This document shows positions 119 to 21,669 of a stretch of DNA of 40,786 nt, piece after piece. Position 1 is the first letter of the stretch, and each line of letters starts with the position of its first letter. The notes beneath the pieces were generated by a model. The model had not been told where the DNA came from. It saw only the letters and a program-made list of their open reading frames with translations, and did no database searches. Both the position numbers and the translations under genes were made by a program. Origin of the DNA: Telmatospirillum sp. (lineage in GTDB: Bacteria > Pseudomonadota > Alphaproteobacteria > Rhodospirillales > Magnetospirillaceae); NCBI GenBank assembly GCA_009712185.1, contig WASQ01000112.1, positions 2,418-43,203 on the forward strand. Reading direction: 5' to 3'.

Positions 119-895
119 ATGCCCAAGTTCTTGGTTTTGTATAAGTGGACCCTGGACGAACAGGACATCAAGGTGAAGTCGGACGACTTGAGCCTTGATG
201 CCAGCCGTGCCAAGGGCAAGATCAGCGATTTCGACCGCAACGCCATCGAAGAGGCGGCGGCGATCGTCGAGAAGCAGGGTGGCAGCGTGGAGGCGCTGAG
301 CTACGGCACCCCGACGGTGAAGCAGTCCCTGAAGGACGTGCTGTCGCGGGGCGTCGACAAGGCCTACTGGATCGGCGACGCGTCGGCGGAGACGGCGGAC
401 GCGGCGGTGACGGCGAAGGTCCTGGCGGCGGCGATCCGCAAGATCGGCCCCTATGACTTCATTCTGACCGGGGAAGGCAGCTCGGACCAGTTCAACCAGC
501 AGACGGCGCCGCGTCTGGCGGCGCTTCTGGGCCTGCCCTGCCTGTCCTTCGTGCATAAGCTGGAGGTCGATGGCGCCAAGGCCAGCGTGGCCCGCAAGCT
601 GGCGGACTGCACGGAGCTGGCGACGGTGACCGGCCCGGCGGTGATCAGCGTTCTGTCGGACATCAACAAGCCGCGGATTCCGGGCCTGAAGCAGGTCCTG
701 GGGGCGGCGAAGAAGCCGTCCGAGGAGATCGCGCTGGGCTCGCTCGGGCTCGCGGCGGAGGATCTTCAGCCGAAGGCCTCGCGGCGGTCGGTCAAGGGCT
801 TCGTGATGACCCGCAAGAACGTGATCTACAAGGACGCTCCGGCGGACGCGGTTGCGAAACTGGTCAGCAGTCTGGCTGGCGAAGGCCTCATCTAG
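119..895 (+). CDS. fixA: Electron transfer flavoprotein beta-subunit FixA
   Basis: FixA forms a heterodimeric flavoprotein with FixB. In the FixABCX complex it takes electrons from NADH and bifurcates them to quinone (through FixC/FixX) and to ferredoxin or flavodoxin; this is established for diazotroph homologues. The 258-residue product has the ETF-beta fold pattern: an N-terminal Rossmann-like segment starting MPKFLVLYKW, the TGEGSSDQFNQQTAPRLA stretch near residue 118, and GLPCLSF. The length is close to E. coli-type FixA (about 256) rather than the longer rhizobial forms. The start is supported by AGGAG at 105-109. It is first gene of a tight fixABCX operon. Whether it serves nitrogenase or another reductase cannot be told from this window, because no nif gene is present. 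Confidence 0.93.
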   Translation: MPKFLVLYKWTLDEQDIKVKSDDLSLDASRAKGKISDFDRNAIEEAAAIVEKQGGSVEALSYGTPTVKQSLKDVLSRGVDKAYWIGDASAETADAAVTAKVLAAAIRKIGPYDFILTGEGSSDQFNQQTAPRLAALLGLPCLSFVHKLEVDGAKASVARKLADCTELATVTGPAVISVLSDINKPRIPGLKQVLGAAKKPSEEIALGSLGLAAEDLQPKASRRSVKGFVMTRKNVIYKDAPADAVAKLVSSLAGEGLI

Positions 896-903
896 AAGAA
901 GCG

Positions 904-1833
904 ATGACGAACATGACTGGGATTTTCATATTTTCGGAAGACCGCGCGCTGGCGAAGCAACTCCTGACCCCGGCGCTTGAGTTGAAGCAGGCGCTTGGCC
1001 AGCCGGTGACGGCGCTGGCGCTGGATGGCGAGGCGGCGGCGGAGCTGGCCGGTCATGGCGCCGACAAGGTGCTGGTGCTGCAGTCTGCCAGTGGCTGGGT
1101 CGAAGGCCTGGGTGACGCGGTGGCCGGCCTTGTGGGCGAGGCCAGCGTGATCCTGATCGGCGGCACGCAGCGGGGCAAGCATCTGGCGGCGCATGTGGCG
1201 GCCAGGCTGGACGCCGGCCTGACCACCGACGCCAAGTCGCTGAAGATCGAGGCGGGCAAGCTGGTGGCGAGCCGCATCCTCTATGCCGGCCTGGCGGTCT
1301 GCGAGGAGGAACAGTCCTTCCCGGCGGTGGCGACGGTTCCGGCGCGGACCTTCCCGGCTCCGGCGGCGGCGGCGGCGGCAGGCACGGTGGAAAGCGTGCC
1401 GACGGCGGCCGACGGGCGGATTGCCGTGACCGGTGTGACCCCGGTGGACAAGTCGGGCGTCGACATCTCCTCGGCCAACAAGCTGGTGTCGGTGGGCCGC
1501 GGCTTCCGCTCGAAGGACGACCTGCATCTGGCGGTCGAACTGGCGGGCAAGCTGAAGGGCGAGGTGTCCTGCACGCGCGGCATCGCCGAGGACGAGCACT
1601 GGCTGCCGATCGAACGCTACATCGGCATCAGCGGGCAGATCGTGAAGCCGGACCTTTACCTGGCGGTCGGTCTGTCGGGTCAGGTGCAGCATATGGTGGG
1701 CGCGCGGGAATCGAAGATCATCGTGGCGATCAACTCGGATGAGCGGGCGCCGATTTTCGAGGCGGCGGACTATGGCATCGTCGGCGATCTCTATGCCGTG
1801 CTGCCCTTGCTGACCGCGGCCATCAACGCCTGA
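904..1833 (+). CDS. fixB: Electron transfer flavoprotein alpha-subunit FixB
   Basis: This 309-residue protein is the ETF-alpha partner of FixA and binds the FAD of the bifurcating dimer. The C-terminal third carries the classic ETF-alpha signature: GRGFRSKDDL, then PDLYLAVGLSGQVQHMVG, AINSDERAPIFEAADYGIVG and a closing VLPLL. These residues form the FAD-binding domain II in the family. The gene starts 8 bases after the fixA stop, with a GAAGAAG Shine-Dalgarno-like stretch; a second ATG three codons in (913) is possible. The gene is co-directional and certainly cotranscribed with fixA and fixC. Confidence 0.93.
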   Translation: MTNMTGIFIFSEDRALAKQLLTPALELKQALGQPVTALALDGEAAAELAGHGADKVLVLQSASGWVEGLGDAVAGLVGEASVILIGGTQRGKHLAAHVAARLDAGLTTDAKSLKIEAGKLVASRILYAGLAVCEEEQSFPAVATVPARTFPAPAAAAAAGTVESVPTAADGRIAVTGVTPVDKSGVDISSANKLVSVGRGFRSKDDLHLAVELAGKLKGEVSCTRGIAEDEHWLPIERYIGISGQIVKPDLYLAVGLSGQVQHMVGARESKIIVAINSDERAPIFEAADYGIVGDLYAVLPLLTAAINA

Positions 1834-1840
1834 GGCGGCG

Positions 1841-3121
1841 ATGTCTGACGACACATTCGACGCGATCGTGGTGGGGGCCGGACCGGCGGGTTCGGCCTGT
1901 GCCTACACCCTGGCGAAGGAGGGCCGCAGCGTCCTCCTGCTCGACCGGGGCAACAGCGCCGGGGCGAAGAACGTCTCCGGCGGCAGGCTCTACACCTACG
2001 CGCTCGAACTGGTGGAGCCCGGTCTTTATGAACGGGCCCCCCTGCAACGCAAGATCGTCCGCGAACAGATCATGCTGATGAACGACCGCGGCGCCACCAC
2101 CGTCGATTATTTCGACCCCGGCTTCGGGGAGGCGGTGCCGCAGTCCTATTCGGTGATCCGCGCGGCGCTCGACGAGTGGTTCGCCGGCGAGGCGGAGGCG
2201 CAAGGGGCGATGGTGGCCCCCGGCGTCGTCGTCGACGGGCTGATCGAGGAAAACGGCCGCATCGTCGGGATCCGCACCGGCGAGGATGAGATGCGGGCCG
2301 ATGTGGTGGTCGCCGCCGACGGCGTCAACTCGCTCCTGGGCCAGAAGGCGGGGCTGTTCCCCGACGTCAAGGCCAGCGCGGTGGGCGTCGGCGTCAAGGA
2401 GACCATCGAACTCCCCGACGAGCTGATCAGCGCCCGTTTCGGGGTCAAGGAGGGCGAAGGCGCCGCCCGGGTCGCCATCGGTTGCACCGAAGGCATCTCC
2501 GGCGGCGGCTTCCTCTACACCAACAAGGGCTCCATCTCGCTCGGCATCGTGTTCAATCCCGAACAGGCGGGCCGCCAGACGCGTCACATCCAGGATATCT
2601 TCCAGGATTACAAGATGCATCCGGCGATCCATGCCCTGATCGAGGGCGGCACCAGTGTCGAATATGGCGCCCATCTGGTGCCGGAAAAGGGCTACCACGG
2701 CATCCCCAAGCAACTGTCGCGGGACGGCTTCGTGGTGGTCGGCGATGCCGCCCAGTTCGGCATCAACACCGGCCTCATCATCCGTGGCATGGATCTCGCC
2801 ATCGTCTCCGGTCTCGCGGCGGCCAAGGCCATCATCGCCGCCAAACAGCCCGCCGATGTCGGGACGCTTTATCGCCAGCAGCTCGAAGAGCTGCTGCTGA
2901 TCGCCAATCAGCAGGCCTACCAGAACTTCCACGGGATCTTCGAAATCTCGCGGATCTTCCGGGAGTATCCCGCTCTCGCCAACGACGCCATGCAGTTCCT
3001 GTTCCGCGTCGACGGCAAGAAGCCCAAGCCGATGCTCAAAGGTCTGCTCGATATCGTCAAACGCAATGTCTCGTTCGGCAAGCTGCTGGGCGACGGCTGG
3101 AAAATCTACAGGCACATATGA
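1841..3121 (+). CDS. fixC: FAD-dependent oxidoreductase FixC (ETF-quinone oxidoreductase type)
   Basis: FixC is a flavoprotein related to ETF:quinone oxidoreductase; with FixX it passes the high-potential branch of the bifurcated electrons to the quinone pool. The 426-residue product has an N-terminal dinucleotide-binding motif (GAGPAG at residues 12-17, followed by LLLDRG), and the later FAD motif VVVGDAAQFGINTGLI near residue 300. No signal peptide or transmembrane helix is seen, as expected for a membrane-associated but not membrane-spanning protein. It starts 7 bases after fixB and its stop overlaps the fixX start by four bases (ATGA), a sign of translational coupling. Confidence 0.93.
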   Translation: MSDDTFDAIVVGAGPAGSACAYTLAKEGRSVLLLDRGNSAGAKNVSGGRLYTYALELVEPGLYERAPLQRKIVREQIMLMNDRGATTVDYFDPGFGEAVPQSYSVIRAALDEWFAGEAEAQGAMVAPGVVVDGLIEENGRIVGIRTGEDEMRADVVVAADGVNSLLGQKAGLFPDVKASAVGVGVKETIELPDELISARFGVKEGEGAARVAIGCTEGISGGGFLYTNKGSISLGIVFNPEQAGRQTRHIQDIFQDYKMHPAIHALIEGGTSVEYGAHLVPEKGYHGIPKQLSRDGFVVVGDAAQFGINTGLIIRGMDLAIVSGLAAAKAIIAAKQPADVGTLYRQQLEELLLIANQQAYQNFHGIFEISRIFREYPALANDAMQFLFRVDGKKPKPMLKGLLDIVKRNVSFGKLLGDGWKIYRHI

Positions 3122-7178: not shown

Positions 7179-7555
7179 ACGGCCCTCCGTCGCCCTCCGG
7201 CACCCCACAAGCCACCGGGACCAGGGACCGCCGTCCTCGCCTCATGCCAGACGCCATGGGGCGCCATGCCACCCTGTATTATATATTCAGGGTGCTATTT
7301 TCCTATTTCCACTCAACCTAAAAATGCTAGATTGAAGCTCTTGGTATGCAGGTGATGCACCTCAAGCAGCGATGACGCTGAGGGAATTTTGCTTGCCGTT
7401 ACACTGTTCATACAGCAAAGCGTCCCGGATTTCCGGGTGTTTTATTGCAGAAAGACGGCTTTTCTCCGCTGAAAATTCGTCTGCCAGGGATCCCATCGGA
7501 CTCCCTGGCGCAGATCACCGCATCGGATCTCTTGAAGTGTCGGCGGATCGCAGCG
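7179..7555. other. Intergenic region before the GGDEF-EAL gene
   Basis: No convincing gene is seen. An AT-rich core (7275-7330) contains an inverted repeat, ACCCTG at 7271-7276 with CAGGGT at 7288-7293. A short palindrome AGGTG-ATG-CACCT lies at 7350-7362. The frame of the downstream protein is open back to a TTG at 7445, so the true start could lie inside this region. The promoter of the downstream gene is presumably here but no clear -35/-10 pair is visible. Confidence 0.35.
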
Positions 7556-10027
7556 ATGAATGACAATGAACCTCTCAAGTTCCTGGTCATCCTGAACGAA
7601 AAGGACGATTTCGCGGAAATCCTCCGTCATCTGGAGAAGGCCCGCTGGCGCCACCGGATCTGCCGGATCGTCCGTTTCTCAGATTTGAAAGACGCTTTGA
7701 GGCACTCGTCCTGGGATTTCGTGCTCGCGGATCCGGACCTTAAAAATATGAGTGTTCCCCGCGTCCTTTCTTTGCTTCGCCAGAAATTCCCTGATGTTCC
7801 GGTGCTGATGTTGGGAGGGCACATTGGTGAGGAGCGGGCCGCAGACCTCATCACTCGAGGTGCCTGGGAATACATCCTCAAGGACAATCTGTCCCGCCTG
7901 ATCCCGGCGATCGAACGTTGCCGCAGGGCGCGGGGCAGGCGACAGGCCCGGATGACGGAGGACCGAAAGCTCAGGCAGAGCGAGGAACGGCTCCGACTGG
8001 CGCTTGGCGCTTCCCGGACCAGTGCCTGGGAATGGGACATTGTGAATGGAAAAATCCATATTCCCGCGGAATGGCAGCCTCTTGGCAGGGCGTCGCGCGG
8101 AACGACCGACCTTGCCCGCATCCTGCAACTGATCCACCCGGATGATCGTCTCCTGGTCATGCTTCATCTGGGCCGCGCTTTGCGACGGCCCCGCCCGGTC
8201 ACGGCGACGTTCCGACTGACATATCCCGACGGCCGGACGCGCAAGGTGGCCATCGAGGCGCAGCCTCATTTTGACGCGCAAGGACGACCGGTGCGGATGG
8301 TCGGCTTGATTGAGGACATCTCCGACCGCCACTCCGCCACCGCCACCATACAACTCCGCCGTGCCGCCGACATTGTGAACAGTACGCAGGAGGGTATCGT
8401 CGTCACCGATGCACAGGGAGTCATCCTGGCGGTCAACCGGGCGGCCTGCGAAATCACCGGTTTCGCCGAGGAGGAGTTGATCGGCGACAGCATGCGGCTG
8501 ATCAATTCGAACCGCCACGACATGACGTTCTTCCGGCAGATTTTCGACGTGATCGCCACCGACGGTTTCTGGCAGGGCGAAATCTGGAATCGCCGCAAAT
8601 CCGGAGAGATGTTTCCCGCCCTGATGACCATCAGCACGCTCCAGGGAGGCAACGGAGACATCGCCACCTATGTCGGGACCTTCGTCGATATGACGCGGAT
8701 CAAACAACCGGAACAGCAACTCCAGCATCTTGCCCATCACGATCCCCTGACCGATTTGCCGAACCGGTTGCTCCTGCTGTCGCGGCTCGACCACGCCATC
8801 GACCGGACAGCCAGGGACGACCGATGCGGTGCGCTTCTCACTCTCGGTCTGGATCGCTTCACGAATGTCAATGACAACCTGGGTCATCCGACCGGCGACA
8901 TGTTGTTGCAGATGGTGGCGCTGCGGTTGCGGGCACGACTGCGGGAAAGCGATACACTGGCACGGCTTGGAGGCGATGAATTCGCGGTCCTTCTTGAAGG
9001 GATCGCCGATGCGGGCGACGCCGCGACAGTCGCCCAGTCCCTGGTCGACGAAGTCGCCAAACCGTTCACCATGCCGAACGGGGCCTGTCTTTACATCGGT
9101 ATCAGCATCGGCATCAGCCTGTTCCCGGACGATGGAGACGACACCCCGTCGGTTGTCCAAAATTCCGATGCCGCGCTTCATCAGGCGAAGAGTGCCGGCG
9201 GAGGACGTTTCCGTTTCTATACAGAACAGATGACTGTTGCCGCCAATGCGCGTGCCACGCTTGAGGCGCAGTTGCGCCAAGGTGTCGAAAGCCACGAGTT
9301 CTTCCTCGACTATCAGCCCCAGGTCAGTCTCCGCGACCATAGAATGACCGGCGTCGAAGCCCTGGTCCGGTGGCGCAATCCCGCCACCGGTCTTATCCCT
9401 CCGGCCCAGTTCATTCCACTGGCCGAGGAAACCGGTCTGGTGGGGCCGCTGGGAACCTGGATCCTGGAGCAGGCCTGCCGTCAAATGAGGGGCTGGCTTG
9501 ATGCCGGTGTGACCCTTGATGTCATGACCGTCAATCTTTCGGCCGTCCAATTCCGCCAACCGGCGTTTGCCGAAACTGTTGCTGCGATTCTGGCCGATAG
9601 CGGTCTTTCGCCGGGCTGCCTGGAACTGGACATTACGGAAAGCGGCTTGATGGAACTCGGCCATGGTTCCGAAGCGACGTTGGAGGGGTTGAAGACCCTG
9701 GGAGTCAGACTGGCGATCGATGATTTCGGAACCGGATGCTCGTCCCTCGCTTATCTCCGGCGCTTGCGGATCGACAAGCTCAAGGTTGACCAAAGCTTTA
9801 TCCGCGACATCCCCGGGGATTCCTCCGCCGTCGAAATCGCCACCGCTGTGGTGGCGTTGGGGCGGACCCTGCATGTCGAGGTGCAGGCCGAAGGAGTTGA
9901 AACCGAGGATCAGCGCGACGCGCTCCGCCGCCTGGGGTGCACGACGGCGCAGGGCTTTTTGTTCGACCGCCCCCTTCCCCCGTCACTGCTGGCAGAGCGT
10001 TGGTTCCCGAGGACCGGTCCACGATGA
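7556..10027 (+). CDS. REC-PAS-PAS-GGDEF-EAL cyclic-di-GMP enzyme
   Basis: The 823-residue cytosolic protein is a predicted two-way c-di-GMP enzyme. Residues 8-120 look like a receiver domain: acidic pair D17/D18, candidate phosphoacceptor D59 in FVLADPD, and K109. Two PAS domains follow (about 145-260 and 270-382; the second has VVTDAQGVILAVNRAACEITGF). A GGDEF domain with intact GGDEF at 472-476 and an EAL domain with intact EAL at 601-603 and DDFGTGCSS come next, so both cyclase and phosphodiesterase activities are possible. I used the ATG at 7556 since it begins just before the receiver fold; a TTG at 7445 would add 37 residues. It lies 151 bases upstream of the cytochrome-porin gene and may be cotranscribed. 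No transmembrane helices are seen. Confidence 0.9.
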   Translation: MNDNEPLKFLVILNEKDDFAEILRHLEKARWRHRICRIVRFSDLKDALRHSSWDFVLADPDLKNMSVPRVLSLLRQKFPDVPVLMLGGHIGEERAADLITRGAWEYILKDNLSRLIPAIERCRRARGRRQARMTEDRKLRQSEERLRLALGASRTSAWEWDIVNGKIHIPAEWQPLGRASRGTTDLARILQLIHPDDRLLVMLHLGRALRRPRPVTATFRLTYPDGRTRKVAIEAQPHFDAQGRPVRMVGLIEDISDRHSATATIQLRRAADIVNSTQEGIVVTDAQGVILAVNRAACEITGFAEEELIGDSMRLINSNRHDMTFFRQIFDVIATDGFWQGEIWNRRKSGEMFPALMTISTLQGGNGDIATYVGTFVDMTRIKQPEQQLQHLAHHDPLTDLPNRLLLLSRLDHAIDRTARDDRCGALLTLGLDRFTNVNDNLGHPTGDMLLQMVALRLRARLRESDTLARLGGDEFAVLLEGIADAGDAATVAQSLVDEVAKPFTMPNGACLYIGISIGISLFPDDGDDTPSVVQNSDAALHQAKSAGGGRFRFYTEQMTVAANARATLEAQLRQGVESHEFFLDYQPQVSLRDHRMTGVEALVRWRNPATGLIPPAQFIPLAEETGLVGPLGTWILEQACRQMRGWLDAGVTLDVMTVNLSAVQFRQPAFAETVAAILADSGLSPGCLELDITESGLMELGHGSEATLEGLKTLGVRLAIDDFGTGCSSLAYLRRLRIDKLKVDQSFIRDIPGDSSAVEIATAVVALGRTLHVEVQAEGVETEDQRDALRRLGCTTAQGFLFDRPLPPSLLAERWFPRTGPR

Positions 10028-10178: not shown

Positions 10179-11621
10179 ATGGGCAATCATCGCGTATTTC
10201 CATTCTCCTTGACCTCTGTTTTCTCCTGTCCCGCCCTATCAGCACGTCGCCGCCCGCGCCGCATCCCGCTGATAGCGGCACTTTCGGGTGTGATTCTCCT
10301 CCTTGCCGGCAGCCTGCCGGCAAGGGCTCTTCCCAGTTTCGCCGCCCAGACCGGTCAACCGTGCGCAGCCTGCCATGTCGGCGCTTTCGGCCCGCAACTG
10401 ACCCAGTTCGGGCGAGACTTCAAGCTCTACGGCTATGTCGCGGCGGAGCCGGGGAAAAGTCATTTTCCACCGATCTCACTCAGCGACCAGATGGTCTTCA
10501 CCCACACCCAGAAAGACCAGCCCCCGGGGTCGGTGTTTCCCCCGCGGTTCAGCAAAAACGATAATTTCTCACCAGGGCAGGAAGTATCGATTTACTACGC
10601 GGGAACGATTATCCCCAAAGAACTGGGCGGTTTTATCGAAGTCCATTACGAATCGGCGAGCAGCACGATCTCGCTCTCCAATGTCGATATCCGACATGCG
10701 CAGGAAGGACGTCTCTTCGGATCCGATATGGTCTGGGGGGTGACGCTCAATGACAGCCCGGCCGTCACCGACATCTGGAATTCGACGCCTGTCTGGGGAT
10801 TTCCTTATTATTCGTCCGCGTTGGCCCCCACGCCGGTCGCGGACACCGTCCTCGGCCAGACCTCCACCAATGCGTTCGGCCTCGGCCTTTACGGCCTGTG
10901 GAGAGAGCTGCTTTATCTGGAATTCGATCTCTATCGGCAGCTTCCCAAGGGGGCAAACCAGGTCCTGGGGCATCCGATCGCCAATATCGACATCGCGGAC
11001 GACGTGACCCCTTACTGGCGGGCGGCGATCCAGCATCTTTTCGACAATGACCGGCAATATGTCGAGATCGGCACCCTGGGTCTGTCGACGTCCATTCGTC
11101 CAGGCGGCGACAATTCGACAAGTCATCATGACCACTATCTCGATGTCGGCGTCGATGCCAACTATCAGTGGTACGCCGATCCCAACGACGTCCGGGCTCC
11201 GGTTGTTTCCGCGCACGCCATCTATCTTCACGAGGACCAGAGTCTCGATGCCAGCCGGATCCTGTCCGGGTCCAATGCGAAGGACCATTTGGATACGTTC
11301 CGCGCCGACGTCTCCGTCGCCATCGATGCGACCTACACGCCGACCATCGGGTATTTCCGCAGGACAGGATCGACCGATCCCTCCGGTCATTGGGGCACCG
11401 ATGTCACCGGAAACACTGTGACGAATCCGAAAAGCGCCGGATGGGTCTGGGAAATGACCTATGTGCCCTGGGGCAAACCCGACTCCCTTTTCCAGCACAC
11501 CAACATGCGATTGACGGCGCAATACACCTATTACACGGCCTTCAATGGAACATCCACGCATGCGACAGACAATAATACCCTGATGCTGATGGTGCATTTT
11601 ACACTTGGCGTTAATAACTGA
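10179..11621 (+). CDS. Cyc2-like outer-membrane monohaem cytochrome fused to a porin-type beta-barrel
   Basis: The 480-residue product has a basic N-terminus (RRRPRR), a hydrophobic signal segment and likely cleavage near PARA. The mature protein begins LPSFAAQTGQPCAACHVG, with one c-type haem site (C62-x2-C65-H66). This closely follows the A-x-P-x-F-A-R-Q-T-G-x2-C-x2-CH signature of fused cytochrome-porins such as Cyc2, the outer-membrane Fe(II) oxidase. The rest has alternating aromatic and polar segments typical of an outer-membrane barrel, ending MLMVHFTLGVNN. I chose the ATG at 10179 (AGGA at 10165-10168) over one at 10098. The next gene encodes a periplasmic cupredoxin, a natural electron acceptor. 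Many such fusions occur outside known iron oxidisers, so the substrate is unproven. Confidence 0.75.
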   Translation: MGNHRVFPFSLTSVFSCPALSARRRPRRIPLIAALSGVILLLAGSLPARALPSFAAQTGQPCAACHVGAFGPQLTQFGRDFKLYGYVAAEPGKSHFPPISLSDQMVFTHTQKDQPPGSVFPPRFSKNDNFSPGQEVSIYYAGTIIPKELGGFIEVHYESASSTISLSNVDIRHAQEGRLFGSDMVWGVTLNDSPAVTDIWNSTPVWGFPYYSSALAPTPVADTVLGQTSTNAFGLGLYGLWRELLYLEFDLYRQLPKGANQVLGHPIANIDIADDVTPYWRAAIQHLFDNDRQYVEIGTLGLSTSIRPGGDNSTSHHDHYLDVGVDANYQWYADPNDVRAPVVSAHAIYLHEDQSLDASRILSGSNAKDHLDTFRADVSVAIDATYTPTIGYFRRTGSTDPSGHWGTDVTGNTVTNPKSAGWVWEMTYVPWGKPDSLFQHTNMRLTAQYTYYTAFNGTSTHATDNNTLMLMVHFTLGVNN

Positions 11622-11649
11622 GCTCAATTTCGTGAAAAGGCTGGTGAAA

Positions 11650-11973
11650 ATGCGAAAAATATCGACAGCTTCAATCGTTGTTGCATGCTGCGCGATACTG
11701 CCATCGGCAGATGCGGCAGACATCTCGATAGATCAGGCCAATAAAACATTCAGTCAACCATCTGTGACGGTCAAAACCGGAGACCGCCTCATCTTCAAGA
11801 ATGGTGATGATGTGACACACAACATCACCATCGAGGATAAGGATGGCAACGGTGACGACAAGGGAATGCAGAAGCCGGGAGAGGAGATTTCCGAGAAATT
11901 CGACGCGGCCGGTGAGTTCACAGCCCGGTGCCAGATCCACCCACGCATGAAAATGAAAATTACCGTTCAGTAA
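11650..11973 (+). CDS. Small periplasmic cupredoxin (plastocyanin-like)
   Basis: This 107-residue protein has a signal peptide (cleavage probably after SADA) and one cupredoxin domain. The type 1 copper ligands are visible: H57 in DVTHNI, then C94, H97 and M100 in CQIHPRM. Such proteins carry single electrons in the periplasm. It starts 28 bases after the cytochrome-porin, with AAGG about nine bases before the ATG; an in-frame TTG at 11605 is rejected because it precedes the signal peptide. Position between an outer-membrane cytochrome and a multicopper oxidase suggests it shuttles electrons between them, comparable with the role of rusticyanin beside Cyc2; this is inference. Confidence 0.88.
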   Translation: MRKISTASIVVACCAILPSADAADISIDQANKTFSQPSVTVKTGDRLIFKNGDDVTHNITIEDKDGNGDDKGMQKPGEEISEKFDAAGEFTARCQIHPRMKMKITVQ

Positions 11974-12012
11974 AAATAAGAAATCCATACACAACCGTCT
12001 ACTGAGGGACAG

Positions 12013-15003
12013 ATGCGGGATAACGGATTCATTACAGCCCATGAGATCGACGTTCTGGAGAACATGCAAATTGTTTCCAAAACGGATCCTGGTGGGCGAA
12101 TTACGTTTGTGAATCAGGACTTCATTGATATCAGTGGTTTTTCAATCGAGGAACTGATTGGCGCCCCGCACAATATTGTCCGCCATCCGGACATGCCCCC
12201 GGAGGCCTTTGCCGATCTCTGGACCACGATCAAGGGGGGATCGCCCTGGCAGGGATTAGTCAAGAACCGGTGCAAAAATGGCGATTTCTATTGGGTTCAA
12301 GCGTCTGTCACCCCCCTTGTGGAGGCCGGGACCGCGGTGGGATATATCTCCGTGCGGTCGCGCCCCAATCGAAAGGATGTGGAAGCCGCTGAGGCGGTCT
12401 ATGCCCGTTTCAGAAACCGCAGCAATGGAACGCTCAGATTTTCCGGCGGCCGTGTCATCGACATGGGCCTTGCCGCCCGCATCTCGCGCTCGTTTTCCAG
12501 TATCGTCTTCAGGCTGAACGCCGCCTTCCTTCTGCTGATCATTCTCAGTATTGCCGTTGGCGGCACCAGCCTCTCCGGTATGCGGCTGTCCAATGAATCG
12601 CTGCGACAGGTTTACGAGGACCGCGCCGTCCCGATCGTTCAGCTCGCCAAGATCAACGACCAGGTGCGCGACGTCGCGTTCCAGATGGCGCTTTTGCAGA
12701 ACGAACTGACAGCGGGAAACCCGGTCGCCGCCCGCGCCGGGCGTATCCGCAAGATCGTCGATCAGGTGACCCTCCAGATCGGCAAGGTCGAGGGATGGAT
12801 GGCGACCGCCGAGGAGAAGGACGCGGGACGCAAACTGGCGGATGCGGTCGGGACGTTTTTCGGAACGGTCGTCACGCCGGCGCTCGACGCCGCGGGCCGC
12901 AACGATGGGGAGGCCGTCAAAAAGCTGACATCACAATTGGCGTCGGTGTTTCATAACGTGACCGTCGCGCAACAGGAGCTGTTCGGCGTCGAAATCCTGG
13001 GGGCCGGCGACGCATATGAGGCGGCAAGCCGGCATTTCCATATCCTGGCCGGTGTCGTGGCCGGTGCCATTCTGTTTGCCATCCTGGCGTCCATTCTGCT
13101 GGGCCGGTTCCTGTTACAGTCGATTCACCGGCCGATGAAACGCCTGGAATCCTATTTCATCGACATCGCCCGCAACGATTTCCAGAAGGACATCCCGCAG
13201 GAAGCCGCCAGGGAATTCTGGCACACCATCGCGATGTTGCAGGCGATGAAGGTCCGGCTCGCCGTTTCAGTCCACGAGAATGCCGCCATCAGCAGGCAAT
13301 CGCAGGAGTTGATTCACCGCGAAATGCTGACGCTGACCGAAGTTCTGGACGGCGAAATCCAGGAAACCGTCACCGACATCTCCTCGCAGGCCCACAGGTT
13401 AAACGACAGCGCCGTCCGCCTTTCCCAGATCGCCGCCGATCTTCACAATTCGACGGAACAGGCGACCCTGTCCATTTCCACGGCGGCCGGCAATGTCCAG
13501 ACGATGGCAAGTGCGACGACCGAACTGGAAACGTCCAGCCGGGAAATTCTGGCCCAGGTGGCCAACAGCTCGCGCCTCGCGGCGTCGGCCCGCGAGCGGG
13601 GAGATGATGCCAGTCACAAGGTTGCGACGGTCACGGATGCCGCGGCCCGGATCGGCAATGTCGTCGGGATGATCCAGGCCATTGCCGGACAGACGCGGAT
13701 GCTGGCCCTCAATGCCACCATCGAGGCCCAGCGGGCTGGCGATGCCGGCAAAGGATTTGCCGTCGTCGCCGACGAAGTGAAGGGCCTTGCCCGCCAGACG
13801 GAAAGCGGCATAGCCAATGTTCAGGCGCAGACCGGCGAGATCGACCGGACCACAAGGGATGCGGCCGACACAGTGGCCTCGGTCGTCGAAGCGATCCGGG
13901 ATATCGACGCGATCGGAACGGAAGTGGCCCGCGCCGCCGATGAACAGAGATCCGCGACCAGTGAAATTATGAAAAGCGCGGTCCAGGCGGCGGAGCATAC
14001 CGCGTCCGTTTCCGATCAGATGAAGGCCATGATGCAGGGCGTCGATATGACGAGCCGGACGGCCGCCAGGGTTTCCGATCTGGCGTCGATGGTCAGCCGG
14101 GACATCGGGTCTCTGCAACGGCGGCTGAATGCCGTTCTGCGGTCGTCCTACGGATCCGATCATGAGGCGGATGGCCGGGTTTCGGCGGCAATCCCGTTCA
14201 CCGCCAATTTCGGAAGTCAGCGATATGACGGATACACCGGAGATCTGTCGACACGGGGGGCGCTTTTGATCGTCGCCTCCCGGGGCATGCCGGAAACGGA
14301 TGTCGGCACCGTCACATTTGAGACTGTCGGCACAGTCAATGCCCGCGTCCTGACGGAAAGCGCCTCGGGATTCCATGTCCGTTTCGAAGATGTGGCCCAT
14401 CGCGACGCGGAGGCCTTGCGGCGGGCCATTGACAGGGCGGCCCGGGAGGATCAGGGCTATCACGAGATCGCGACAGGCGTGGCGCAACGTGCGATCGAGG
14501 CCGCCGACAAAGCCCTGAGCGCCGGGACGCTGACCCGGGCTGAACTGTTTTCGATCGATTACGATCCGATCGCGGGAACGGATCCGCGCCAGTTCCTGGC
14601 GGGTCATACCCTCTTCGCCGAAGCCGCATTCTGCCCGCTTTTGGAGGAGGCTCTGGCGCGGGACGATCGGATCGCCTTTTGCTGCATCACCGATCGCAAC
14701 GGCTATGTCGCCGCTCATAACCGGAAATTCTCCGAGCCGCAACGCCCCGGCGACCGCGACTGGAATACGGCCCATAGCCGCAACCGGCGGATTTTCGAGG
14801 ACCGGAATGGCATTCTGGCGGCAAGAAATACCAGGCCCATCCTGTCCCAGACCTATGCCCGCGACATGGGGGGACAGGGATTTGTGCTTTTGAAGGAGAT
14901 CGACGCGCCGATCACGATTGACGGGGAGCACTGGGGCGCCGTCCGTCTGGGCCTGAAACTGGACCAACGGGTCTCGGGCGATTCCGGAGGCGGCGGAAAA
15001 TGA
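12013..15003 (+). CDS. Aer-like PAS chemoreceptor with PilZ-like and C-terminal sensory domains
   Basis: The 996-residue receptor begins with an Aer-type PAS domain (about 15-118; [17 protein letters not shown] and [10 protein letters not shown] are typical). TM1 (about 168-187), a periplasmic four-helix-like segment, TM2 (about 343-365) and a HAMP-like linker follow. The signalling domain spans roughly 440-710, with hairpin tip [17 protein letters not shown]; most receptors have [16 protein letters not shown], so the tip is altered. Residues 720-795 resemble PilZ, with DLSTRG matching D/NxSxxG, but the RxxxR motif is missing. Residues 845-985 form a conserved-looking sensory module ([25 protein letters not shown]). 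GAGGGA precedes the ATG. Its stop overlaps the start of the multicopper oxidase gene, implying coupled expression. Likely role: energy or redox taxis. Confidence 0.9.
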
Positions 15004-17069
15004 TCCGCTGGATGGGATGGTTGCTGCCCGTTCTGACACTGATCACCAGCCTGTTCCCGCTTTTCCCGGCATCGGCTGCCGAAGATCCGGACCTTCCCCG
15101 CCCCCCGGAAATCACCAGCCGGCATGGCGTCCTGCGGGTAACGCTGGTCGCCGGCCCGCAAACTGTGGTTATCGACGGAGTTTCCTTCAACGCGCAAACG
15201 TTCAACGGCAGCTATGCCGGCCCTCTTCTGCGCGTTCATCCGGGAGACCGGATGATTATCCGGCTGGTCAACCATCTGACAGAATCTACCAACCTTCATT
15301 TTCACGGCATCCAGACGTCGCCACGGGGCAACGGCGACAATGTCGCCGTCGTCGTCCGTCCCGGCCGGGAATTCACCTACCGGATCCGCATCCCGGAGTT
15401 CCAGCCTCCCGGAATGTACTGGTATCACTCCCACTACCACGGCATGGCACAGAAGCAGGTCAATGCCGGTCTGAGCGGCGGATTGCTGGTCGAAGGGCTG
15501 TCACGGCGGATTCCCGAATTGGCGGCAGTCCGGGACCGTGTTCTGGTTGTCAAGGATCATGAGATCGAAGAGGACGCCCCCGACGCCGAACAATCGCCCG
15601 ACCGTCACAATCTTCTGGTATCCGTCAATGGCGCGGCCGGTTTCACGATCCGGATGCGCTCCGGCGAGACGGAACTGTGGCACATCAGCAACCAGAGCTC
15701 CGACCGGCTGCTGCATCTTTCCATCTCCCAGCATGACCTGAGAATCGTCGGGGTCGACGGCGATACCGTCACCCATGCCTTTTCCGACCGCGCGGTGGTG
15801 GATGTTCTGCCCAGCGGTCGGGTCAGCGCCCTGATCACAGCCCGGGCCCCCGGCCGCTACGAGATCCGTGCCAACAAGGTTCTGACCGGCCAGGGGCCGA
15901 ACCAGACGCTTTATCGCGTTGTGGGATGGCTGGATGTTTCCGGGTCTGATGTCAGCGAGACCTTTCAGGGAATCAGGCGTTTTCCGGGACAGAGAGATTT
16001 GCGGGACGCGAAAATCGACGTCAAACGAACCGTGATTTTTTCGCAATCACAAGATGGGCGACAGTTTTTCGTCGACGGACGCACCTTCGATCACCTTCGG
16101 ACCGATGCGCGCGTTCCATTGGGAAACATTGAGGAATGGACGATCCGCAATCTGTCCTATGACCTGCATGTGTTCCACATTCACCAGTTGCCCTTTCAGG
16201 TGGTGGAGGTCAATGGCTCTCCCAGGCCGTTCGACGGTTATGTCGACACGGCCGCAGTCCCGGAGGTCGGCGAAATCAAGATCCGTCTGGCTTTCACCAA
16301 CCCCGAGATCGCGGGGCGCTTCGTTTACCACTGCCATCTGCTGGAACATGAGGACAAGGGCATGATGGCGACCATCGAGGTCTATGACCCGGCCGTCCTG
16401 CGAAGGACCGTCGCGCGTCGTCCGAAATTCACTCTGACCGACCAGAGGGGGACAAAAGTCACGGAACACAGTCTGGCCGGACATTATTCCCTGATCTATT
16501 TCGGCTACACCCATTGCGGGGATCTTTGCCCAACCACCCTGTCGACCATGGCCGATGCCCTGGACGCGCTGCGACCCCGCCTGCCCCCCATCCTGCCCGT
16601 CATGGTTACAGTCGATCCCGATCGCGACCGGCCTGCCGATCTTGGGGAGTATGTCGCCCAGTTCAGCCCGGCCATGCTGGGATTAACGGGACCGTCCGCC
16701 AACATTCTTGCCCTGGCGCGCCAGTTTGGCGCCTTTTTCGAACGGGCGGGCAGTGGCGAGGATTACACGATCGACCACACCTCCGACCTTTATCTCGTCG
16801 GTCCGGACGGACGTTTCCTCGCCACTTTTCCCTACGGCCTGTCCTCCGGGGATCTGGCGGACGCGATCGCCGCCAAAATCCAGTCCCCCGGCGACGACAC
16901 GTCGCCCCAGCCCGTCAGCCGCTCTGACGACGATCAGTCGTCCTCCAATCCCGTACCGAAGGCCGGATGGAAGGTGACCGCGCCAGCCGGCGCAGCACCC
17001 ACCAGCGGCAAGGCCAGCACCACCTCCGGCGAAACGCCCTCCAGCGCCAGACAGGAAACCGACCGGTAG
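15000..17069 (+). CDS. Multicopper oxidase fused to a SCO1/SenC domain
   Basis: The 689-residue exported protein (signal peptide cleaved near FPASAA) carries a full multicopper oxidase and a SCO domain. All four copper motifs are present: HFHG (H100, H102), WYHSHYHG (H143, H145), HVFHIH (H390, H393, H395) and [12 protein letters not shown] (H444, C445, H446, H450, M455). The SCO domain follows at about 476-628 with THCGDLC (C506, C510), VTVDPDRD and H593 in [16 protein letters not shown] proteins deliver copper or reduce thiols, so the fusion may load its own oxidase. GGAGG at 14986-14990 and an ATGA overlap couple it to the chemoreceptor. The last 50 residues are Ser/Thr/Pro-rich and run antisense through a convergent gene, suggesting a lost stop. 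The substrate (Cu(I), Fe(II), Mn(II) or organic) is unknown. Confidence 0.9.
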
Positions 17070-18093: not shown

Positions 18094-19716
18094 TCAATGA
18101 GCGCCGCCGCCGCCCGCGCCGGCCTGTGCTTTCGTCATGCCAAGCGACACCGCCATCGCAATGATGAGAAGGGCTCCGAGGAGAAAGAATGCGTCGCTGA
18201 ACCCCATGATCGTCGCCTGAAGATGGATGCTCTTGCCCACCGCCTCCAGGGCTTTGTGCCAGGCCAGTTCCGGGTCGGTCACACCATGGTTGATGAAGGT
18301 CTGCTGAAGCCCGGCGAGACGCTGTCTGGTGGCGGCCTGGAACACCGAGACATCCGTGTTGATCATGGCCGAATGGAATTGCTCCCGCCGTGTCAGAAAA
18401 GTTTGAAGGATCGCGGTTCCGAAAGCGCCGCCGAGATTGCGCATCATGTTGAACAGCCCGGAAGCGGCCCCCGCTTCAGCATGGGCGATTCCCGCCATGG
18501 CCACCACCGACAGCGGTGTCATCACCAGGGCCTGACCAACGGCACGGACAATGTTCGGGATGAGCAGTTGCTCCCCGCCATAATATTGCGACAGATGGAT
18601 GTTGAGCAGAAAACTGGCGGCGAAGACACCAAGCCCCCCGACCACCAGGAAACGGATGTCGAAACGCTTCATCAGCACCGGAACGAACGGGATCAGCAAC
18701 AGTTGCGGCAGTCCGGTCCAAGCCATGACCGCACCGATCTGCTGCGAATCATAAGCCTGCGTCTGCGACAGATAGAGCGTCAGGATCAGACCTGAGCCAT
18801 AGAGGGCAAATCCCAGCAATGTATTCGCGGTCAGCCCCAGGGCGAAATTCCTGTCACGCAGCAACTTCAGGCGAATCAACGGGCGTTCCACCGTGAGTTC
18901 AATCGCGAGAAACAGCAGAAGGGAAACCGCGGCGATCACCGACAGCCGCACGATGAAGGGGGACCCGAACCAGTCATCCTTGTTTCCCTCTTCGAGGACC
19001 GTCTGAAGACATCCGAGACCGACGGACATCGCCACGATTCCCGCCCAATCGCCGGTTTTCAGAAGGTCAAGGCGCATCGGCGACGGTTCCAGCGCGTAGT
19101 AGAGCGCTCCCAGCATGATCGCTCCGGGGACGAGGTTCAGGTAAAAAACGTACTTCCATCCGTAATTGTCGGTCAGGAATCCGCCGATGGTCGGGCCGAT
19201 GGCGGGAGCGAACGTGGCGGTTATGGCGAACAGGGCCATGCCCACCGGTCTCTGCGATTTCGGCAGTTGCGTGACGACGATGGTAAAGGCCAGCGGGATC
19301 AGAACGCCGCCGCAGAACCCCTGAATACCGCGCAGCGTAACCATCTCGCCCAGTGACGCGGCATTGCCGCACAGGGCCGAGAAAGCGAGAAACAGCACCA
19401 CATTGGTGATCATGTAGCGCCTGAGGGAAAAGACACGGCTCAAAAAATCGGTCAACGGGATCACAATGATCTCGCCGATGAGATAGGAGGTGACGACCCA
19501 TCCGCCGTCGTCGATACCCGCGCCGATGCCTCCCTGGATCTGAGCCAGGGAGGCATTGGTGATCTGGATGTTGAGCACCGCCATGAAGGCGCCGAGGACA
19601 GCCCCCAGAACACCGATCCAGGTCTTGAGATCCGCCCTCTCCCTGACGTGGTCTCCGCCCCGGGAACTGCCGGCAGTCGCCTGTGACGTGGCGGACGCAG
19701 GACCGCTGTCAGTCAT
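18094..19716 (-). CDS. emrB: DHA2-family MFS multidrug efflux permease (EmrB/QacA type)
   Basis: The 540-residue protein is a 14-helix major facilitator of the DHA2 family, which exports drugs by proton antiport. Helix 1 carries LGAFMAVLNIQITNASL, matching the family D/N motif. DDGGWVVTSYLIGEIIVIPL follows, as does the motif C-like GPTIGGFLTDNYGWKYVFYLN. The C-terminus ends in a glycine-rich tail. It follows the membrane-fusion gene emrA after 18 bases and both are controlled by the divergent TetR gene. Together with an outer-membrane channel not in this window it would form a tripartite pump. The substrate cannot be read from the sequence. Confidence 0.92.
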   Translation of the reverse strand: MTDSGPASATSQATAGSSRGGDHVRERADLKTWIGVLGAVLGAFMAVLNIQITNASLAQIQGGIGAGIDDGGWVVTSYLIGEIIVIPLTDFLSRVFSLRRYMITNVVLFLAFSALCGNAASLGEMVTLRGIQGFCGGVLIPLAFTIVVTQLPKSQRPVGMALFAITATFAPAIGPTIGGFLTDNYGWKYVFYLNLVPGAIMLGALYYALEPSPMRLDLLKTGDWAGIVAMSVGLGCLQTVLEEGNKDDWFGSPFIVRLSVIAAVSLLLFLAIELTVERPLIRLKLLRDRNFALGLTANTLLGFALYGSGLILTLYLSQTQAYDSQQIGAVMAWTGLPQLLLIPFVPVLMKRFDIRFLVVGGLGVFAASFLLNIHLSQYYGGEQLLIPNIVRAVGQALVMTPLSVVAMAGIAHAEAGAASGLFNMMRNLGGAFGTAILQTFLTRREQFHSAMINTDVSVFQAATRQRLAGLQQTFINHGVTDPELAWHKALEAVGKSIHLQATIMGFSDAFFLLGALLIIAMAVSLGMTKAQAGAGGGGAH

Positions 19717-19734
19717 TCTGCCCCTCCGGCCGGA

Positions 19735-20820
19735 TCAACGCGCGGCCACCGCATGGTCGGAAACCGGGTTCCTGGCGTCCGCCAGGGCCTGTTCCTTGGT
19801 GTCGATTGTCGGCTGAACCGACATGCCCGGGCGCAGGCGATCACTGGCGGCAATCCGGTCCAGGGTGATCTTCACGGGAATCCGTTGCACCACCTTGGTG
19901 AAATTGCCGGTCGCGTTATCGGGCGGCAACAGCGCGAATTCCTGCCCGGCGGCCGGCGCGACACTATCAACATGTCCCTGGAAGACGACACCCGGGAAGC
20001 TGTCCACGGTGATGTCCACCGACTGGCCCTTGTGGACATGGGTCAACTGGGTTTCCTTGAAATTCCCGACCACATAGACGGATTGCAGCGGAACCAGAGC
20101 CATGAGTTGGGTTCCCGCCTGGACATACTGCCCGACCCGCAGGGTCCGGTTGCCGACCGTTCCGCCGATGGGCGCAACGAGGGTCGTGTAGCTGAGGTTC
20201 AGTTCCGCCTGCGCGACAACCGCCTGATCGTGGGTCAGCGCGGCGCGGGCTTTCGCCAGCCCGGTGTTCAACACCTCGATTTCCTTTTCCGCGGCGGCCA
20301 GTGCCGCACGGTCGCGAACCAGCGCCGCGTTCTTCTGTTGAATATCCGAAGCCGCCTGCTGGGCGCGCTGCACGGTCCCGTATCCGGTCTTCTGAAGGTC
20401 CCGGTAGCGGTCCAGTTCCTGCTGCGCGAAAACCCGAGCCGCCTCATCGACAGCGATGGCGGCCCGTGCCTGTTCCACCATCTGATGCTGCTGATCGATC
20501 TGAGCCAGGATATTGGCGACGGTGGCCTGCGCTGCCTCCGCATCCGCCTTCGCCTGCTCAAGGGCATTGCGGAAATCCCGGTCATCGATCCGGGCGACGG
20601 CCTGGCCGGCGGAGACTGTCTGATTGTCCTCCACCAGCACCTCCGAAATATACCCGGACACCTTGGGCGCCACCGTCGTGTAGTCGGCGCGAACATAGGC
20701 GTCGTCGGTGGTTACCTGGAAGCGGTCCTCGGTCCACCACCGGTAGCCCCACCCCGCCGCCACAACCACCAGGGCCAGGGCGGCCCCGCCCATCAACCCC
20801 TGCCTTACCCGGATCGCCAT
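19735..20820 (-). CDS. emrA: HlyD/EmrA-family membrane fusion protein
   Basis: This 361-residue periplasmic adaptor links the EmrB-type permease to an outer-membrane channel. It has one N-terminal membrane anchor (about residues 8-27) and a typical biotinyl-lipoyl start (DDAYVRADYTTVAPKVSGYI and VEDNQTVSAGQAVARID). A long alpha-helical hairpin follows, then the second lipoyl half and beta-barrel (APIGGTVGNRTLRVGQYVQ, FKETQLTHVHKGQ). I placed the start at 20820, which has GGAG six bases upstream; the frame is open much further but upstream residues are the shadow of the regulatory region and tetR. It is the first gene of the emrAB operon. Confidence 0.92.
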   Translation of the reverse strand: MAIRVRQGLMGGAALALVVVAAGWGYRWWTEDRFQVTTDDAYVRADYTTVAPKVSGYISEVLVEDNQTVSAGQAVARIDDRDFRNALEQAKADAEAAQATVANILAQIDQQHQMVEQARAAIAVDEAARVFAQQELDRYRDLQKTGYGTVQRAQQAASDIQQKNAALVRDRAALAAAEKEIEVLNTGLAKARAALTHDQAVVAQAELNLSYTTLVAPIGGTVGNRTLRVGQYVQAGTQLMALVPLQSVYVVGNFKETQLTHVHKGQSVDITVDSFPGVVFQGHVDSVAPAAGQEFALLPPDNATGNFTKVVQRIPVKITLDRIAASDRLRPGMSVQPTIDTKEQALADARNPVSDHAVAAR

Positions 20821-20841
20821 ATCAAACTCCGCTAAACCGAA

Positions 20842-20886
20842 CCGTCTAGTACGGAACAATCTGGTGATCATCCGACCATTCGTCAA
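20842..20886 (-). promoter_or_regulatory. emrAB promoter with operator-like repeat
   Basis: On the minus strand a -35-like TTGACG (plus 20881-20886) lies upstream of a weak -10. Just downstream is CCGT-CTAGT-ACGG (20842-20854 as a near palindrome) containing TAGTACGGAA (20847-20856). The exact reverse complement of this 10-mer recurs at 20965-20974 in front of tetR. This is what a TetR repressor controlling both divergent genes would need. Confidence 0.6.
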
Positions 20887-20964
20887 GAACATGATGTGGG
20901 AAAATGCAGACTTCCGTTGCATAGCTGCCCTTACGCTCTTGCGGCCGGTTGCGTTCGACGCATA

Positions 20965-20983
20965 TTCCGTACTAACTATTACG
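20965..20983 (+). promoter_or_regulatory. Operator-like palindrome in front of tetR
   Basis: TTCCGTACTA (20965-20974) mirrors the site at 20847-20856. It overlaps a palindrome CGTA-N8-TACG (20968-20971 and 20980-20983). It is 27 bases upstream of the tetR start and is a likely autoregulatory operator. Confidence 0.6.
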
Positions 20984-21009
20984 AGGCTTTGCAAAGGACA
21001 GTCAGAACG

Positions 21010-21669
21010 ATGGCCATGACCGGAACCCCGGGACGCGCGACCAGAACGAGACGCACCTGCGAGAATATTCTCGATGCGGCCAATGCCGTGTTTCTGGAGC
21101 GGGGTTATAGCGGTGCCAGCATCGACGCCATCGTCGAGCGTGCCGGCTGTTCCAAGGAGACCGTTTATGCCCATTTCACCAACAAGGCCGGCCTTCTGAA
21201 GTCGATCGTCGAACGGGGGACGGAAGTCTTCCGACACAAACTGGATCTGGTCGAGGAGGACCGGCCGATCAAGGATGTGCTGCTGGATGTGGCGAAGGGC
21301 TATCTGATTTTCATTCTGACGCCCGAAATGCAGGCGTTCTACAGGCTGGTCATCGCGGAAAGCGGACGGATGCCGGAGGTTGGTGATGTCTTCTACCGCC
21401 AGGGACCCGAGATCACCGCAAACCGCCTGGCCGCCAGGCTGCGCCTCTGGCAAAGGGACGGTCTCATCTCCCCCGACGATCCGGATCGCGCGGCCGTCAT
21501 TTTCTTCGCCATGCTGCGCGGGGATCTGCAATGGCGTGTCCTGTTCAACGCGACACGGAGCCCGACTACGGTCGAGATCGACGCCCATGCGGCGTTCGTC
21601 GTCGATGGTTTCCTGGCACTGTGCCGGTATCGCGATCCCGCCACCCGGTCGCCCGGCGATCGCGGCTGA
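21010..21669 (+). CDS. TetR-family repressor of the divergent emrAB genes
   Basis: The 219-residue regulator has an N-terminal TetR helix-turn-helix: ILDAANAVFLERGYSGASIDAIVERAGCSKETVYAHFTNKAGLL-type sequence at about residues 19-62. The C-terminal ligand domain is of the AcrR/TetR_C type (FYRLVIAESGRMPEV, as in many efflux repressors). I chose the ATG at 21010, with AAAGGA at 20993-20998; the frame is open back to 20896 but those residues are not TetR-like. It is divergent from emrAB and mirrored operator-like repeats lie between, so it very likely represses both. The gene just downstream is co-directional. Confidence 0.9.
   Translation: MAMTGTPGRATRTRRTCENILDAANAVFLERGYSGASIDAIVERAGCSKETVYAHFTNKAGLLKSIVERGTEVFRHKLDLVEEDRPIKDVLLDVAKGYLIFILTPEMQAFYRLVIAESGRMPEVGDVFYRQGPEITANRLAARLRLWQRDGLISPDDPDRAAVIFFAMLRGDLQWRVLFNATRSPTTVEIDAHAAFVVDGFLALCRYRDPATRSPGDRG

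Follow-up and report, generated by a model that had tools for sequence, protein, structure and literature searches.

A cytochrome-porin variant of Telmatospirillum sp. with a neighbouring cupredoxin gene, in a family whose carrier genes are repeatedly exchanged

We analysed a 40,786-nucleotide stretch of Telmatospirillum sp. DNA (assembly GCA_009712185.1, contig WASQ01000112.1, positions 2,418 to 43,203 of the forward strand; hereafter the window, numbered from its first letter). In it, a gene for a fused, Cyc2-like cytochrome-porin (10179..11621, + strand) is followed by genes for a small periplasmic cupredoxin (11650..11973, +), a chemoreceptor (12013..15003, +) and a laccase-like three-domain multicopper oxidase with a C-terminal SCO1/SenC copper-chaperone domain (15000..17069, +). 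The locus encodes a cytochrome-porin variant in which the carrier has been swapped, as is seen repeatedly in its family, and which in two genomes has an unusual oxidase partner. We propose, with modest confidence, that the barrel protein forms a single-protein conduit across the outer membrane, whose haem would reduce the amicyanin-like cupredoxin and, through it, the respiratory chain or, in the window and in the related genome G007, the oxidase; the SCO domain would serve copper loading and the receptor energy taxis.

Structure of the cytochrome-porin and its relation to Cyc2

The AlphaFold2 model of the first gene product comprises a signal peptide, a monohaem head (residues ~46-90) and a 16-strand barrel (99-478), and a structure search assigned the porin fold to it. 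This predicted structure, which a preliminary description of the locus had called for, replaces sequence amphipathy, weak evidence for a barrel, and bears out the barrel-like remainder supposed there. Residues 1-45 have a predicted local distance difference test score (pLDDT) below 50; a hydrophobic stretch at 28-51 matches a signal peptide. Just behind it, as described earlier, lies the single haem-binding motif CXXCH (CAACH, residues 62-66, 10362..10376, + strand, in the context ALPSFAAQTGQPCAACH), where the haem would be held. Translation may start at ATG 10179 (480 aa) or at the in-frame ATG 10098. No Pfam or NCBIfam family scored above its cut-off for this protein, but homologues were present in 14 of the 99 genomes searched, its own included, so the open reading frame (ORF) is not a chance one. 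Among the relatives' ORFs, CXXCH was absent only from L008, which a contig end truncates. Alignment A2 was assembled from rows selected for CXXCH, which makes the motif's invariance there a matter of construction.

The family was surveyed in 99 non-redundant loci, namely the window, 14 loci of relatives, 7 plasmid loci and 77 loci from a scan of public genomes. The scan contributed the best 80 of at least 595 stretches (at least 590 relatives), so the set of 99 was not drawn at random, and the residues of its search pattern, P[QE]LT[PSQ][FY]GRxF, are conserved by construction in the rows that it supplied. Four near-identical loci were removed, L012 (G023) was left out and 8 of 9 matched plasmid records were taken. 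L065 and L069 hold two barrel genes each, of which one was counted, and contig ends truncate the flanks of some loci. The cytochrome-porins of two of the plasmids (L020 and L024, from Acidithiobacillus ferrooxidans and Acidiphilium cryptum) are identical in protein sequence, a sign of recent transfer.

With Cyc2 of the A. ferrooxidans rus operon and of Mariprofundus PV-1 (PMC8406198, PMC10654088), the window protein shares a signal peptide, one N-terminal CXXCH and a fused barrel of about 16 predicted strands. As given by Keffer 2021, Cyc2 is characterised by AXPXFAR[Q/K][T/Y] upstream of CXXCH, a form of which served as a screen, and by PXL four residues downstream. The window protein instead reads ALPSFAAQT, with Ala in place of Arg, and its PQL follows CXXCH after six residues, two further away. 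By this published motif it is not Cyc2, and the name was rejected for it; the earlier Cyc2-like reading holds for its architecture. Among the 97 loci that could be parsed (all but L077 and L031), the Arg was absent in 31, including all 4 of the clade to which the window belongs, the spacing from CXXCH to PXL was longer in 37, and the full upstream motif was matched in 39.

Apparently exchangeable carriers beside the barrel family

The cupredoxin was confirmed to possess a complete set of type 1 copper ligands (H57, C94, H97 and M100, identified by eye and by alignment with amicyanin), and it matched Pfam Copper-bind at 1e-9. Its ligand spacing, C-x2-H-x2-M, is that of the amicyanin type 1 copper loop, while the NCBIfam amicyanin model TIGR02657 gave 31.6 bits where 110.2 are required. 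All 20 sequence matches in the PDB were amicyanins, plastocyanins or, in one case, a nitrite-reductase cupredoxin domain. On these matches the label rusticyanin-like was rejected, and the parallel with rusticyanin drawn in the preliminary description gives way to an amicyanin-like one. The ORF was listed from TTG 11605; the 28-base spacing from the barrel gene is counted from ATG 11650.

A tree of 98 loci (L023, whose cytochrome-porin copy is split over two frames, was too short and was left out) placed the window, G028, G007 and G006 in one clade with support 100/97. The cupredoxin (E up to 1e-8) was found in 6 of 99 genomes, its own included, and in four of them, which are the four genomes of this clade, it lies beside the barrel gene, in keeping with its supposed role as a linked carrier. 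Neighbouring cupredoxins in L025, L026, L027 and L051 also supported the assignment.

Across the family, 79 of 99 loci have a carrier gene no more than 1.5 kb from that of the barrel; it encodes cytochrome c in 61, HiPIP in 14 and cupredoxin in 8, with two kinds at four loci. The cytochrome c calls are based on CXXCH: there were 81 small same-strand ORFs with this motif in 279 kb near the barrel gene, against 15 in 724 kb of far flank, and the far-flank rate implies a few false calls. Cytochrome c was confirmed by Pfam at L040 and L041 and by annotation at seven plasmid loci. For HiPIP, a model made from 8 neighbours was used in a search that added 6 loci; all of its matches fell inside the 1.5 kb distance, though 8 of the 14 loci had built the model. 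Checked by Pfam at three of these 14, HiPIP was above the cut-off at L107, just below it at L101 and unmatched at L063, and the record of L019 is annotated as HiPIP. An azurin/plastocyanin-type protein was confirmed by Pfam at L058, L057 and L051.

The tree requires at least 11 changes of carrier type when loci with two kinds are scored as cupredoxin or HiPIP. Cupredoxin loci, eight in all, occupy four separate places rather than one clade, and two of them also encode a cytochrome c. That cytochrome c, HiPIP and cupredoxin replace one another repeatedly next to a single barrel family suggests an interchangeable periplasmic carrier. Cytochrome c or HiPIP genes are reported to adjoin Cyc2 in Acetobacteraceae (PMC10715153) and in Bradyrhizobium (told in PMC5566968), and interchangeable pathway modules are described in Zetaproteobacteria (PMC7029218). 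The likeness lies in the carrier gene standing beside the cytochrome-porin or in the carriers being exchangeable; the difference is that in parts of the window family a cupredoxin occupies the carrier's place. Rusticyanin of the rus operon excepted, a cupredoxin gene adjoining Cyc2 was not met in the literature searched, part of it available in excerpt. A. ferrooxidans Cyc2 does pass its electrons to the cupredoxin rusticyanin (PMC8406198, PMC10654088), whereas the window carrier is amicyanin-like and encoded next door, and an oxidase and a receptor share its locus.

Gene linkage, oxidase and receptor

The ORF list gives four consecutive + strand genes spaced by 28, 39 and -4 bases, at the coordinates claimed previously, the oxidase start overlapping the receptor stop by 4 bases; they probably form an operon. 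A promoter or terminator splitting them was sought in the + strand gaps and no sigma-70-like or terminator-like match was found, which is weak evidence because match counts were close to those expected from shuffled sequence. Just upstream of the cytochrome-porin gene, a receiver-PAS-GGDEF-EAL protein (7445..10027, +; ORF and Pfam) is possibly a regulator or the head of the operon. Elsewhere the window carries an electron-transfer flavoprotein (ETF) pair followed by an ETF-quinone-oxidoreductase-like gene (119-3121) and, on the other strand, a HlyD/CusB-type membrane-fusion gene with an MFS gene (18094-21588).

The other clade loci differ in composition. That of G007 runs PAS receptor, oxidase, barrel, cupredoxin and second receptor, with a 4-base overlap between oxidase and barrel; its Aer-type receptor (L026:6013-8196) has an in-frame stop between the sensor and signalling parts, which may be an assembly error or mark a pseudogene. 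The G006 locus consists of barrel, cupredoxin and receptor. In G028, MtrAB and two-component genes precede barrel and cupredoxin, and a CXXCH ORF, which we read as a putative cytochrome c, runs on to the contig end. Barrel and cupredoxin are thus linked in all 4 clade loci and form the core, while a receptor gene comes directly after them in 3 and the oxidase is present in 2. The earlier expectation that the four genes travel together therefore holds for the barrel-cupredoxin pair and in part for the others, the SCO fusion having been seen only in the window.

The third gene proved to be a large chemoreceptor, as proposed, with PAS, 4HB_MCP_1, MCPsignal and PilZ domains by Pfam. A cytoplasmic Aer-type PAS is followed by a hydrophobic segment (160-192), a four-helix bundle, a second hydrophobic segment (340-372), the signalling domain, PilZ and a C-terminal extension (14431-15003) that has no Pfam match. 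Its PAS matches the E. coli Aer structure 8dik (E 4.4e-39) and retains five of the seven flavin adenine dinucleotide (FAD) contacts named in PMC9668731 (H53, R57, W70, N85 and R115), with Leu for M69 and Gly in place of T27. The order of PAS and signalling domain is that of Aer; the four-helix bundle, PilZ and the extension are additions. Given this Aer-like PAS with its five conserved FAD contacts, the receptor more likely monitors redox conditions within the cell than any named donor, and the earlier idea of a dedicated receptor steering cells to the donor loses ground to internal redox sensing.

We consider it highly improbable that receptor and oxidase are chance neighbours merely inserted beside the conduit gene. 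The genome is receptor-rich, with 78 signalling-domain matches in 6.1 Mb, an estimated one gene in 100, so that a receptor as neighbour is not very rare. There is also no receptor enrichment near the barrel gene outside the clade: the ratio of near to far receptors falls from 6:3 overall to 2:2 once the window clade is removed, and a general link between receptors and conduits was rejected for this reason. However, chance insertion fits poorly with the receptor following the cupredoxin in three of four clade loci, with the 4-base overlaps between locus genes, and with the joint occurrence of the oxidase and an Aer-type PAS receptor in the loci of G000 (the window genome) and G007 despite their different order.

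The oxidase combines three Cu-oxidase domains with SCO1-SenC (Pfam). All four copper motifs (HFHG at 100, HSHYHG at 143, HVFHIH at 390 and the fourth at 444) and the SCO cysteines (CGDLC at 506) are in place, in agreement with the preliminary description. The SCO domain (PF02630, 147 bits) is complete, with H593 as the distal His of its CxxxC motif. The best PDB matches are named laccase, and the domains and motifs conform to a three-domain laccase-like enzyme. NCBIfam scores fell below the cut-offs for CueO (139.6 of 525 bits) and CopA/PcoA (87.3 of 478.95). With a limit of E 1e-45, strict enough to miss looser fusions, the oxidase-SCO junction was found in 1 of 289 class genomes, its own, and 0 of 3956 matching plasmid records cover 80%; a widespread fusion protein was rejected on these counts. 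An assembly labelled Rokuibacteriota holds another SCO1/SenC fusion, to PCu(A)C, in a 706-aa ORF (L114:3758-5875) that lies about 4 kb away from a cytochrome-porin gene.

Laccase/CueO-like oxidases are often tied to copper tolerance. The barrel and cupredoxin could accordingly feed ordinary respiration while a separate oxidase-SCO detoxifies periplasmic Cu(I)/Fe(II), with no electron transfer between them and with linkage through metal-stress regulation, a reading that we regard as somewhat unlikely. It is favoured by the laccase/CueO-like nature of the oxidase and its dispensability in the clade, by the efflux-type pair at 18094-21588 and by locus L047 (5599-11748), where the cytochrome-porin gene stands amid CusB-type, MerR and outer-membrane-efflux genes, a setting that resembles a metal-resistance island. 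Against it, a close oxidase (E up to 1e-60) occurs in only 2 of 99 genomes, its own included, in both within the clade's conduit locus and overlapping a locus gene by 4 bases. The oxidase scores far under the CueO and CopA/PcoA cut-offs, and neither a MerR/CueR-type regulator nor a copper ATPase was found among the 27 window ORFs run against Pfam. An efflux pair with an MFS pump, moreover, suggests drug rather than copper export.

A proposed electron route and its alternatives

In the conduit that we favour, the N-terminal c-type haem of the barrel protein would take electrons at the cell surface from Fe(II), by analogy the default and most likely donor, or from another reduced metal or mineral. 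It would hand them to the cupredoxin from the next gene, a gene that in this clade takes the place of the one for a small cytochrome c or HiPIP found in most carrier-bearing relatives. From there electrons would enter the respiratory chain or, in the window genome and G007, may reach the co-encoded oxidase, which would act as a periplasmic O2 reductase. The gene's place makes the oxidase a possible acceptor, since the window and G007 encode it where two cupredoxin loci encode cytochrome c. Either the oxidase or the cupredoxin would receive its copper from the fused SCO domain. The receptor PAS, provided that it carries FAD like that of Aer, would sense the redox change and direct the cell's movement.

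Several findings weigh against this reading. In addition to the two departures from the Cyc2 motif, 20 of 99 loci showed no carrier in the 1.5 kb around the barrel gene, the oxidase is absent from the G006 locus, the SCO fusion was seen in the window only, both among the clade loci and among the class genomes, and the receptor ratio is even outside the clade. Furthermore, a RuBisCO large subunit was not found in the genome, so the organism is not an obvious lithoautotroph. The genome also holds two further MtrB/PioB loci with multihaem cytochromes (contigs C94 and C13; L129 and L130). With these two barrels present and no RuBisCO large subunit found, lithotrophy and a side activity are equally likely roles for metal oxidation. 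One of the two loci has a 9-CXXCH MtrA-like cytochrome, the other a 7-CXXCH cytochrome with an ethylbenzene-dehydrogenase-type subunit. Two kinds of conduit also stand together in G028 (L025:4693-8062) and G001 (L031:4019-7355), where an MtrB/PioB barrel and a 10-CXXCH cytochrome lie ~2.5-3 kb from the cytochrome-porin gene.

Genes of the MtrB/PioB type are used in both electron directions. Together with the multihaem cytochromes of this genome, they lend some weight to an export of periplasmic electrons, under O2 shortage, to acceptors such as Fe(III) or humics, as does the reported part of Cyc2 isoforms in Fe(III) reduction in acidithiobacilli (PMC10715153). We nevertheless judge export improbable, because the linked oxidase, of an O2-reducing type, points to uptake toward O2. 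Type 1 copper carriers are usually of high potential, which likewise suits uptake toward O2 better than export.

The preliminary description knew of no system with this set. The exact four-gene combination was not met in the literature searched, but several of its pairs have published parallels. The PcoAB porin-oxidase model of Fe(II) oxidation (PMC5566968), itself a hypothesis, also routes electrons through an outer-membrane barrel and a periplasmic multicopper oxidase; in the available text PcoB is not described as a haem protein, and the window oxidase scores under the CopA/PcoA cut-off. Slit_1812-1818 of Sideroxydans lithotrophicus ES-1, higher on magnetite, likewise comprises copper-domain proteins, two with multicopper oxidase motifs, as well as SCO1/SenC and a predicted cytochrome (PMC12016527). 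Its products, however, are encoded by separate genes, SCO by its own, and are predicted to be extracellular, and no cytochrome-porin is named in the part of that source available.

A more radical form of the route, which we hold unlikely, is a short circuit from cytochrome-porin through cupredoxin and a soluble periplasmic oxidase to O2 without the respiratory chain, the Aer-type receptor reading the outcome. If the oxidase is the sink, extracellular metal oxidation would proceed without energy conservation at a cytochrome oxidase. For the family as a whole, the variant bears on how iron-oxidising bacteria are sought with Cyc2 motifs: since the Arg is absent and the spacing from haem motif to PXL is longer, although barrel and haem site are kept, a strict motif requirement would drop the window subfamily from such screens.
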